A stretch of 43,347 nucleotides of DNA. Origin: Faecalibacillus intestinalis (GTDB lineage Bacteria > Bacillota_I > Bacilli_A > Erysipelotrichales > Coprobacillaceae). Position 1 is the stretch's first letter, and each line of letters opens with the position of its first letter. Shown here one piece after another: positions 1,463-5,117 of the stretch. The stretch spans positions 325-43,671 of the forward strand of contig NZ_PYLQ01000023.1 in NCBI RefSeq assembly GCF_003024685.1, in the 5' to 3' direction. Both the position numbers and the translations under genes were made by a program. The notes under the pieces were generated by a model. That model saw only the letters and a program-made list of their open reading frames with translations. It did not search any database and was not told where the DNA came from.

Positions 1463-2014
1463 ATGGAAATTTTAGATATATGCGATGAATTAGGAAATCC
1501 AACAGGAAAGACAGTAGAAAGAGAAATCGCACATCAACAAGGTATCTTACATCGTACAGCTCATGTTTGGATCTTAAGAAAAAAAGAAAATAAAATACAA
1601 ATATTATTACAAAAAAGAAGTGAACAAAAAGATTCGTTTCCTGGCTGTTATGATATTTCAAGTGCAGGACATATTCCTGCAGGGGATAACTATGGTCAAT
1701 CGGCGGTAAGAGAGTTGAAAGAGGAATTAGGAATTGTTGTAAGGGAAAGTGAATTGATTGATTGTGGAAATCGTAGATTTCATTTTGAAGAAATTTTTCA
1801 TGGTCGTTTATTTAAAGATAATCAAGTAAGTAAAATATTTGTTTTATGGAAAGATTTAGAAGAAAAAGATTTTGTTTTTGTTGATCATGAAGTAAGTGAA
1901 GTTAAATGGTTGGATTTTGAAAAATGTTATCAAGATGTTAAAGAAAATAAAATAAATCATTGTATTTATATTGAAGAACTAGATATAGTAAAAAAATATC
2001 TTCGTGTTCAATAA
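1463..2014 (+). CDS. Nudix hydrolase, IDI-like/YfcD family
   Basis: This 183-residue protein hydrolyses a nucleoside-diphosphate-linked substrate or related pyrophosphate; the exact substrate cannot be read from sequence. It opens with MEILDICDELGNPTG, typical of the YfcD branch that resembles isopentenyl-diphosphate isomerase. The Nudix box runs from GHIPAGD to RELKEELGI; the first acidic position is Asp instead of the usual Glu, while the catalytic REx2EE core is intact. An alternative label of isopentenyl-diphosphate isomerase type 1 is less likely, because the catalytic Cys region of that enzyme is not evident. Ribosome binding site GGAGATG precedes the ATG. Transcribed divergently from map. 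Confidence 0.88.
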   Translation: MEILDICDELGNPTGKTVEREIAHQQGILHRTAHVWILRKKENKIQILLQKRSEQKDSFPGCYDISSAGHIPAGDNYGQSAVRELKEELGIVVRESELIDCGNRRFHFEEIFHGRLFKDNQVSKIFVLWKDLEEKDFVFVDHEVSEVKWLDFEKCYQDVKENKINHCIYIEELDIVKKYLRVQ

Positions 2015-2096
2015 TGATCCTTTTTAAGTCTATATAAATTCCTTCTAAGGCGTTTTTTGGAAAAAACATAAAGAATATAAAAATAAAAAAAGATGC

Positions 2097-2122
2097 GGGG
2101 GGGGGGTAAAATATGCTATAAT
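2097..2122 (+). promoter_or_regulatory. Extended -10 promoter with an upstream G10 tract, serving the LytTR regulator gene
   Basis: A run of ten G residues (2097-2106) lies ten bases upstream of TATAAT (2117-2122). TG one base before the hexamer makes it an extended -10. The G run occupies the spacer and -35 zone; no good -35 hexamer is seen. A mononucleotide G run of this length stands out in such AT-rich DNA, and length change by slippage would shift upstream contacts relative to the -10. Confidence 0.65.
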
Positions 2123-2161: not shown

Positions 2162-2875
2162 ATGTATTTTACGATTATGGATGATGATCGAGCGTTTGGC
2201 GAAACTTTAAAAAATAAATTAGAAAGTGAATACCATGCTGTTGTAGATGTTTATCATGGAATGATTGATCTAGATCAGATAAAACATGTACCCGATATTT
2301 TATTTTTAGATGTGATATTTGAAAATGGGACAGGTGTGGATTATGCGAAAAAGTACAAAGAAAAGTTTGATTCACAAATTGTTTTTGTTTCAAGTAAAAG
2401 TAGTTTGATTTTTAAAACCCAAGGATTAAAGGCGTTATGCTTTATTAGAAAGAGTCATCTTGATAATGACTTTAAAGTCTTTAAACAACTTTACGATGAA
2501 GAATGTAAAAATGAAATGAAATTGATTTTTGAACTGAATAAGGGAATGAATAAAAATCAAATGGCATATATAACATTAATGAGTGATGATATTATCTATG
2601 CAGAATGTTATGCTCATGAATTGATTATCCATACATATGAACATGAATATGCTGTTAAAATGACTTTGAAGAAATTTATGGAACAAGTAAAACAAGCACA
2701 TTGTTTTATTCAAATACATAGAAGTTATGCAATTAATATGAAATATATTTATCGTATAGATAAAAATCATATTAATATGGTTAATGAAGAAAGTAAAAAT
2801 GAATTAGAAATTGGTAGAAAATATAAAAAAGAAGTTAATGAGGCCTTTAGAAACTACTTGATGGATAAATTTTAG
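2162..2875 (+). CDS. LytTR-family response regulator (orphan)
   Basis: Two-domain transcription regulator, 237 residues from ATG 2162. This ATG is preferred over GTG at 2156 because the AAGGGTG ribosome binding site is correctly spaced only for it. The N-terminal receiver domain has the acidic pocket (MDDD near the start), the phospho-acceptor Asp in LFLDVIFENG, a Ser switch position (VSSKSS) and the conserved Lys in FIRKSH. The C-terminal LytTR DNA-binding domain shows the signature around IQIHRSYAINMKYIYRI. LytTR regulators usually control virulence, bacteriocin, cell-wall or competence genes and pair with a HPK10-type histidine kinase; no kinase is adjacent here. The next gene is a cell-wall amidase separated by a terminator. 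Its promoter contains a G10 tract, so expression may be phase variable. Confidence 0.92.
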   Translation: MYFTIMDDDRAFGETLKNKLESEYHAVVDVYHGMIDLDQIKHVPDILFLDVIFENGTGVDYAKKYKEKFDSQIVFVSSKSSLIFKTQGLKALCFIRKSHLDNDFKVFKQLYDEECKNEMKLIFELNKGMNKNQMAYITLMSDDIIYAECYAHELIIHTYEHEYAVKMTLKKFMEQVKQAHCFIQIHRSYAINMKYIYRIDKNHINMVNEESKNELEIGRKYKKEVNEAFRNYLMDKF

Positions 2876-2905
2876 ATATCATGAAAAATCATGATATCTT
2901 TTTTT
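2874..2905 (+). terminator. Intrinsic terminator of the LytTR regulator gene
   Basis: Perfect 11-bp stem around AGATATCATGA with a short A-rich loop, followed by an eight-T tract; it begins at the stop codon. Confidence 0.9.
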
Positions 2906-2930: not shown

Positions 2931-3620
2931 ATGAAAAGAATTTTTCTTATAATGATTGCTTTTGGTGTATGTTTCTTTGAGATTCCTGTAGATGCTTATG
3001 AAAAATCTTTAAAAAATGTAAAAGTGGTGATTGATGCAGGACATGGTGGTTTTGATAATGGAGCTATTGAATATGGTTATTATGAAGATAATATTAATTT
3101 AGAAATTGCTTTGAAAATGAAAGATGAATTAGAAAAAAGTGGAGCTAAAGTCTATTTAACAAGAGATGGTGATTATGATATGACGAAAAGAAATCATCAT
3201 TATTCTAAACAAGATGATATGTATTTAAGAGTCAAGAAGATAGATAGCTATAAATGTGATTATTTATTAAGTATTCACCAAAATGCTTCTGGTAATAGAA
3301 GTGCATGGGGTTCACAAGTTTTTTATTATTATAGAAGCAAACAAGGAAAAGCATTAGCTTTTGATATTGATCAAAGTTTAAAACAGTTAACAAATAGCAG
3401 AAAACCAATTAGTGGATGTGGTTTTAGGGTTTTAAGAGCTACTAAGACATTAGGAGTTCTAATTGAGTGTGGTTTTTTATCAAATTATAATGAATGTGGG
3501 CAACTAAGAAGCAAAAATTATCAAAAAAAACTATGTCAAAAGGTAAAAGAAGGGCTCATTAAATATCATTTAAGAATAATGACTCAAAAAAAGAAAAAAA
3601 CAGCAAAAATTTTACAATAA
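2931..3620 (+). CDS. N-acetylmuramoyl-L-alanine amidase (Amidase_3, CwlD-like), secreted
   Basis: Zinc amidase that cleaves the MurNAc-L-Ala bond of peptidoglycan outside the membrane. Residues 1-22 form a hydrophobic signal sequence or anchor (KRIFLIMIAFGVCFFEIPV). The catalytic domain follows directly: zinc ligands His38 (DAGHGG), Glu52 (YYEDN) and His116 (SIHQNAS), and catalytic Glu179 (LIECGFLSN). The 229-residue length and lack of repeats or cell-wall-binding modules match CwlD, which makes muramic-delta-lactam in spore cortex, rather than a vegetative autolysin. The highly basic C-terminus (QKKKKTAK) is unusual and may contact wall polymers. Whether this organism sporulates cannot be told from this window. 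Its start has a GGTGATGTT ribosome binding region. Confidence 0.92.
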   Translation: MKRIFLIMIAFGVCFFEIPVDAYEKSLKNVKVVIDAGHGGFDNGAIEYGYYEDNINLEIALKMKDELEKSGAKVYLTRDGDYDMTKRNHHYSKQDDMYLRVKKIDSYKCDYLLSIHQNASGNRSAWGSQVFYYYRSKQGKALAFDIDQSLKQLTNSRKPISGCGFRVLRATKTLGVLIECGFLSNYNECGQLRSKNYQKKLCQKVKEGLIKYHLRIMTQKKKKTAKILQ

Positions 3621-3737: not shown

Positions 3738-3814
<77 letters not shown>

Positions 3815-3839
3815 TTAATTAATTGTTTTATATAGATGT

Positions 3840-3916
<77 letters not shown>

Positions 3917-3956
3917 TTTTAACAAATGAAATGGTGGAAAAAATAAATATTAAATT

Positions 3957-4032
3957 GGGGCCATAGCTCAGCTGGGAGAGCACCTGCCTTGCACGCAGGG
4001 GGTCAGCGGTTCGATCCCGCTTGGCTCCACCA
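3957..4032 (+). tRNA. tRNA-Ala(TGC)
   Basis: 76 nt, acceptor GGGGCCA/TGGCTCC (one G-T pair), anticodon TGC at 3990-3992, encoded CCA. The Ile-Ala order mirrors the usual 16S-23S spacer pair, but no rRNA is present here. Confidence 0.97.
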
Positions 4033-4093: not shown

Positions 4094-4112
4094 CCAATTG
4101 AGGGGGTAAAAT

Positions 4113-5117
4113 ATGGCACAAAGTAGAGGAAAAGGAAATTATGTAATCAATACTTTTAATGGAATGGCTTATGGCTTTTTTGCAAGTTTGATTATTGGAA
4201 CAATATTAAAACAATTAGGAACATTAGTTCATGTTGAACAACTTGTAGCCTGGGGGACAGTAGCAGGTTATTTAATGGGACCGGCTATTGGAATTGGTAT
4301 GGGCTATGCAATTGATGCAAAAGGACTTAATTTGATTTCTGCGGTTATTGCAGGAGCAATAGGAGCTGGAACGTTTAATAATGGTGTTCAAGCGGGTAAT
4401 CCAATTTCAGCTTATGTAGCAGTTTTAGCGGCTATTGAGGTAACAAGACTTATTCAAGGGAAAACACCGATTGATATTTTACTTGTTCCTTTTGTTTCTA
4501 TCTGTATAGCAGGTTTGGTAACACAATTTGTAGGACCTTATCTTACACAAATGATTACTTGGATTGGAAGTGTTATTAATGATGGGGTTTCTTTACAACC
4601 TTTATTTATGTCAATTGTTGTAGGGGTGTTAATGGGAATGGCATTAACGGCACCGATTTCTTCAGCTGCTATTGGTATTATGTTAGGACTTGATGGTTTA
4701 GCGGCAGGGGCAGCACTTGCAGGGTGTTGCGCACAAATGATTGGTTTTGCGATGATGTCTATTGAAGACAATGATATTGGTGATGTTATTGCTATTGGAA
4801 TTGGAACAAGTATGTTACAGTTTAAAAATATTATTAGAAGACCGGTTATTTGGTTACCTACAATTTTAACAACGATTATTACAGCACCTATTTCAACGGT
4901 CTTACTTCATATTCGTTGCAGTGCAATTGGCTCAGGAATGGGAACAGCAGGACTTGTAGGCTTATTGGATGCGATTCAAGTAATGGGAAATCAGTATTGG
5001 ATACCACTTATTTTGATAGATGTGATTGCTCCAGCAATTTTAACATTTAGTTTTTACAAAGCTTTTAGAAAATTGAATTACATAAGAAAAGGAGATTTAA
5101 AGATTGAACGTCTTTGA
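4113..5117 (+). CDS. PTS-EIIC-like integral membrane permease (PTS_EIIC_2 family)
   Basis: This 334-residue, very hydrophobic protein has about eight to ten glycine- and alanine-rich membrane segments over its whole length and resembles the PF13303-type sugar-PTS IIC family. It would form the translocation channel for a sugar or related compound. No IIA or IIB gene is adjacent, so it must borrow phosphoryl-transfer partners encoded elsewhere or work without phosphorylation, and the substrate cannot be read. A strong GAGGGGG ribosome binding site precedes ATG 4113. The gene is monocistronic, and its 3' end lies inside the terminator shared with the convergent helicase gene. Confidence 0.8.
   Translation: MAQSRGKGNYVINTFNGMAYGFFASLIIGTILKQLGTLVHVEQLVAWGTVAGYLMGPAIGIGMGYAIDAKGLNLISAVIAGAIGAGTFNNGVQAGNPISAYVAVLAAIEVTRLIQGKTPIDILLVPFVSICIAGLVTQFVGPYLTQMITWIGSVINDGVSLQPLFMSIVVGVLMGMALTAPISSAAIGIMLGLDGLAAGAALAGCCAQMIGFAMMSIEDNDIGDVIAIGIGTSMLQFKNIIRRPVIWLPTILTTIITAPISTVLLHIRCSAIGSGMGTAGLVGLLDAIQVMGNQYWIPLILIDVIAPAILTFSFYKAFRKLNYIRKGDLKIERL

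Follow-up and report, generated by a model that had tools for sequence, protein, structure and literature searches.

We analyzed a stretch of 43,347 nucleotides from Faecalibacillus intestinalis (the window), in which a run of ten G residues (G10) lies in front of a gene for a response regulator with receiver and LytTR domains, flanked by genes for a NUDIX hydrolase and a cell-wall amidase (Table 1). The tract and the -10 were found where the first-pass annotation had placed them, with two differences in detail: no -35 could be recognised, and a second, weaker -10 candidate abuts the tract. Specifically, ten bases separate G10 from TATAAT (2117-2122), which is preceded by TGC (2114-2116), and the resulting extended -10 element, TATGCTATAAT, ends 40 bases 5′ of the regulator gene. 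The pattern TRTGNTATAAT has its sole match in the window at this position, and its 15 matches in 443 kb of the same genome correspond to an expectation of about 0.001 per 60 bp on one strand.

Table 1. Features around the regulator promoter (positions in the window)
Feature	Position	Strand	Remarks
NUDIX hydrolase gene	1463..2014	+	Upstream of promoter; no terminator found behind it
A-tracts	2061..2091	+	Possible UP-like element; function putative
G10 tract	2097..2106	+	G on coding strand; read directly
TAAAAT	2107..2112	+	Second, weaker -10 candidate; abuts tract; -35 candidates at best 3/6
Extended -10, TATG-C-TATAAT	2112..2122	+	Exact TRTGNTATAAT
Receiver-LytTR response regulator gene	2162..2875	+	237 aa; Pfam; GTG alternative start at 2156
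Terminator-like hairpin with T-run	2874..2899	+	3′ of regulator gene
Amidase_3/CwlD-like N-acetylmuramoyl-L-alanine amidase gene	2931..3620	+	Neighbour

Neither inspection of hexamers nor a joint -35/-10 test revealed a recognisable -35 at this promoter. The candidate hexamers for TATAAT fall into or beside G10, and those located 17-18 bases 5′ of TAAAAT match TTGACA at three of six positions; a scan with the sigma-70 consensus omitted the promoter, since that scan requires a -35. If transcription starts near 2129, as we infer, G10 would occupy -32 to -23, overlapping or abutting the -35 position, so that one part lies in the spacer and the rest in the place of a -35. The A-tracts upstream of it (A6 at 2061-2066, A5 at 2079-2083, and A7 at 2085-2091) would then extend from about -68 to -38, in a region that is AT-rich throughout.

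The regulator had a well-supported LytTR domain (PF04397, 59.1 bits against a cut-off of 22.6, E-value 5.2e-16) and a borderline receiver domain (PF00072, Response_reg, 29.8 bits against a cut-off of 30.2, E-value 7e-07). No kinase was encoded among the genes scanned about 0.1-21 kb away, a scan that passed over a few short ORFs, in agreement with the earlier description of an orphan regulator. The accompanying designation as a global-type regulator was not upheld, given that the gene is one of about 13 of the LytTR family in its genome (the protein has 15 matches there, and in about 13 the LytTR part is covered) and is missing at this place in four congeners, none of which had an ortholog at the syntenic position. 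The closest matches in congeners were 40-43% identical, no ortholog was present among the genomes compared, and, within the sampled genus, only this species has the regulator at this locus. No direct repeat of the LytTR type, with two or fewer mismatches in all, was detected in the promoter of the regulator or before the amidase gene. Separately, some LytTR genes of the genus and family (L002, L030, L032, and L034) are immediately preceded by a gene for a short AgrD-like peptide (...CYEPEKPASLR, ...NLYEFEKPEQL), which suggests quorum sensing of the agr type.

The amidase gene does lie beside the regulator, as reported initially, while the functional connection drawn from that position fared less well. 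The link is weak and based on proximity only, because a terminator-like hairpin lies between the two genes and because four congeners carry the amidase in a similar neighbourhood with no LytTR gene before it. On the other side, the NUDIX gene lacks a detectable terminator, so that read-through into the regulator is possible. Farther downstream (3738-4032), a tandem pair of near-identical tRNA-Ile (gat) genes precedes a tRNA-Ala gene. A phage origin of the region was considered and rejected, as phage records matched the tRNA genes only.

Long G-runs in the genome and the genus

No other G or C run in the window reaches eight bases, and G10 is not a product of chance. Among 443 kb of the same genome we counted five G/C runs of length 6, none of 7-9, and one of 10, and extrapolation from this run-length spectrum gave an expectation of 0.017 runs of at least 10 in the 2.79-Mb genome, compared with four found.

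Placement was also non-uniform. The genome contains nine G-runs of at least eight, three of which end 8-10 bases 5′ of an exact TATAAT: that in the window, one on contig C34 before a PAS-GGDEF-EAL protein, and one on contig C2 before a small gene. With TATAAT occurring at a rate of 9.3e-4 per position and strand, three of nine at three offsets gives p of about 2e-6, and across the genus (this genome, G000, and five congeners, one genome per species) 5 of 28 runs precede TATAAT within five offsets, with p of about 2e-7; the offsets were picked after the window had been seen, such that both values serve as guides. All five exact TATAAT sequences found within 54 bases past a G-run of the genus are at offsets of 8-10. 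When the arrangement of tract, 8-10 bases, and TATAAT was sought in 148 relatives, its reversed control was absent from the genus, while outside the genus two genomes had the pattern and two had the control, which makes this arrangement a feature of the genus of the window. By comparison, the 4 of 28 genus runs located between a TTG-type -35 and a -10 were not significant alone (1.0 in shuffled sequences, maximum 5).

Several genes behind the tracts of the genus encode regulators or enzymes with GGDEF domains. A G-tract precedes a GGDEF-EAL protein in the genome of the window and also its relative in the congener G004, where the frame is broken further on; others precede a GGDEF protein (G004) and a REC-GGDEF-EAL protein (G001). 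These four cases among about a dozen tracts form a clear excess, noticed post hoc, relative to 66 GGDEF domain matches in the six genomes of the genus. The syntenic GGDEF-EAL gene has no tract in congener G003 and a G9 in G004, so that G-tracts are not needed for such genes. The longest run of the genome, a G13 (G000:C13:101337-101350, L090), is located nine bases 5′ of the start of a PucR-type regulator.

Poly-G promoters in the family and beyond

In the rest of the family, which includes Massiliimicrobium timonense, 10 of 39 G-runs of at least nine had a TTG-type -35 on one side and a -10 on the other, at a spacer of 15-21, compared with a mean of 1.2 and a maximum of 5 in 300 shuffles. Across the taxonomic class, G9-G13 fills the spacer of full promoters, TTGACA-N7-11-G9-13-TATAAT, typically as TTGACA-N8-G10-TATAAT, in which the -10 abuts the tract. 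The pattern TTGACAN{6,11}G9TANNAT matched 71 times in 31 of 394 genomes of this taxonomic class, and the reversed pattern not at all. Among named genomes the pattern was present in at least 118 stretches, mostly from host-associated Bacillota, with Saccharibacteria, Treponema, and others also among the matches listed. The spacers were mostly 18-20 rather than 17, in a scan whose nine-G minimum cuts off shorter ones. With a minimum of six instead, 18 genomes (of which 13 were carriers) yielded just four further promoters, three having G8 and one G6; the tracts are thus long by preference. With C in place of G there was no match in 40 genomes, all 31 carriers included, and the preference for G over C is not explained by spacer length alone. 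In viral contigs, TTGACAAAAAT-Gn-TATAAT had no match.

Based on these patterns, G-tract promoters are a real and apparently selected class, and the class probably consists of contingency elements. The literature searched contained no account of poly-G tracts in promoters of Erysipelotrichia or related gut Bacillota, which does not amount to proof of absence. The window promoter is an atypical member: it shares the long coding-strand G-run by the -10, whereas the -35 and the abutting -10 of the class promoters are neither present in full. The class itself is a more interesting result than the window tract.

Among individual loci, a region in genome G433 (C6:7000-29500, L319/L320) encodes a tandem of at least seven paralogous proteins with a signal peptide (MKNLKMFAIGL...), most ending in KRKENN. 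Every one of these genes has a separate TTGACAAATYGAATAC-G8/9-TATAAT promoter, and the array looks like a surface-antigen switching family.

Signs of slippage and the regulator promoter

Signs of slippage were present in several genomes. Promoter copies with identical flanks and a one-G difference occurred within single genomes, namely G9/G10 (G233), G10/G11 (G423), and G8/G9 (G433). In the genome of the window, a G9 (G000:C13:4421-4430, L084) breaks the frame of an AzlC-like permease exactly at the tract, and this frame is broken a second time further on. Additionally, congener G003 has seven runs of G8-G10 in or between glycan and capsule synthesis genes on contigs C39 and C43 (L072, L077, L081, L085, L088, L091, and L094). 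All three are signs of slippage for the class or genome, not for the window tract. Apart from this, the G003 runs are typical of frame-switching loci.

Comparisons closer to the window tract returned nothing to set beside it. No relative of the LytTR protein was present in genome contigs for a same-locus comparison of length, and viral contigs held no copy of the flanks of G10. Relatives of the tail genes in viral contigs had a long tract at one locus only (L273), providing no length comparison, and the only named hit from the family, Massilimicrobiota timonensis An13 (now Massiliimicrobium timonense), was 100% identical over 3 kb to the family genome G029 and thus not a second strain.

The concentration of G-runs at promoters, the one-G differences between copies, and the break in the permease frame together make a slippage switch the best reading of the tract. 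It is very probable that G10 is a promoter element both selected and prone to slippage, and it is plausible, with somewhat less assurance, that it switches this regulator. The initial proposal of a phase-variable promoter is thereby retained in its slippage component and set aside in the particular form of a porA-type spacer switch. We consider it reasonably probable that G10 acts as a contingency element in a sigma-A-type promoter of the orphan receiver-LytTR regulator, in a manner like that of sabA in Helicobacter pylori. The promoter would be carried by the extended -10, and the G-run would take the place of the -35, joining the A-rich UP-like segment to the core. Slipped-strand mispairing would add or remove a G, shifting and rotating the A-tracts relative to the -10, and transcription of the regulator would be graded or switched as a result, as for the T-tract of sabA. 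For this scheme, which we infer from the layout of the promoter, to hold, the population would contain tracts of different lengths, the extended -10 would set the transcription start, and output would change with tract length.

The H. pylori systems provide the nearest precedent. In sabA and other genes, A- or T-tracts are adjacent to the -35 or replace it, with replacement at two loci (PMC4081817), and tract length sets the rotation of the core promoter relative to UP-like elements; both length variation and multiphasic output have been shown (PMC4081817). As at the window, the tract is located towards the -35 within the core promoter and A-rich sequence precedes it, which at the window may be UP-like; unlike the window, with its G tract and regulator gene, the tract is of T or A and the gene encodes a surface adhesin.

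Some considerations count against a length switch. Sequence upstream may affect an extended -10 promoter little, transcription running on from the NUDIX gene could hide a switch, and tracts in the genome of the window are few. The tract may be an inert, drifting homopolymer beside an ordinary extended -10 promoter, having no regulatory effect, a reading that we regard as unlikely. An extended -10 can function without a -35, no variation was seen at the window locus (with one genome per species), and G-tracts appear and vanish between congeners, all of which would suit an inert tract. Against it stand the surplus of long G-runs in this genome and genus, their location 5′ of a -10, and the zero count for the reversed control in 394 genomes.

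Distinctly unlikely, in our estimation, is a spacer switch of the porA type, in which the tract would lie between a weak A-rich -35 and the abutting TAAAAT, with one G setting the spacer. In porA of Neisseria meningitidis a G-run is located between the -35 and -10, and length-dependent transcription has been measured (PMC3899988). The window resembles porA in having a G homopolymer near the -10, where a change in length would act on transcription, and differs in lacking a -35 and hence a -35/-10 spacer, and in being known here from sequence alone; the analogy in its strict sense, which the first-pass annotation had invoked, consequently does not hold. The TTGACA-N-Gn-TATAAT promoters of the family and class are nearer to the porA layout than the window is. 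The direct adjacency of G10 and TAAAAT is the form seen in many class members, TAAAAT being the second commonest -10 of poly-G spacers (17 of 83), and one promoter in the family (L124) reads TTGACA-N8-G10-TAAAAT. The hexamers at spacers of 17-18 nonetheless match TTGACA at three of six positions, and no joint -35/-10 pair was found; the sabA-like shift of upstream alignment fits the window better than a spacer switch does.

An mRNA element is very improbable. Here, GGGGGTAAAATATG would act as a ribosome-binding site preceding a two-codon ORF (ATG CTA TAA), as suggested by the identity of these 14 letters to a ribosome-binding site and start region at 4102-4115 and by other G-runs of the genome at similar positions (G8 at C28, G13 at C13); yet this would need a transcription start 5′ of the tract, where no promoter was seen, the supposed ORF is overlapped by TATAAT, and the placement statistics agree with promoters. 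Finally, homopolymers are error-prone and the window comes from a single assembly, so the exact G count could be one off, but the chance that the tract is a sequencing or assembly artefact is negligible, since long G-runs at promoters, in identical architecture, are present across many independent assemblies.

Phase variation in gut Bacillota and further loci

Among gut Bacillota, the best-documented form of phase variation is DNA inversion, as at pdcB of Clostridioides difficile. In that species, both pdcB and cmrRST, which belong to the genes for c-di-GMP and signal transduction, are phase-variable (PMC9286219; PMC6837544). The parallel with the window lies in a gut member of the Bacillota whose targets are regulators or c-di-GMP enzymes, such that one switch affects many traits, and GGDEF/EAL genes in the genus of the window also have G-tract promoters. 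The mechanisms differ, pdcB being switched by DNA inversion and the window candidate by slipped-strand mispairing. If the tract does switch, a clonal population of this gut commensal would vary from cell to cell in how active an entire regulator is, and not only in one surface protein.

A broader proposal, for which we consider the case evenly balanced, is that host-associated Bacilli have widespread slippage-switched promoters with coding-strand G-runs beside the -10, undescribed in the literature searched. They would precede surface-protein arrays in some lineages and regulators (LytTR, GGDEF/EAL, and PucR) in the genus of the window, and gain or loss of a single base could thereby switch entire regulons. 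The class can be recognised from sequence; its tract lengths could thus be counted in existing reads and the switched genes found directly, leading to a catalogue of phase-variable genes for poorly studied bacteria like those for Campylobacter or Neisseria.

G-tracts were also noted near genes of phage type. In genome G061 (C3:6494-7942, L100/L127), each of four G9 tracts precedes one in a series of small MANI.R proteins, in an apparent phage tail or lysis region where switching of phage tail parts is possible. Additionally, a tiny leader ORF of the form ATG...AAAATTTGC-G9/10-TAC, or similar, is located behind phage tail genes at five loci (L106, L112, L115, L117, and L273), which belong to several members of the family and to a single viral contig.
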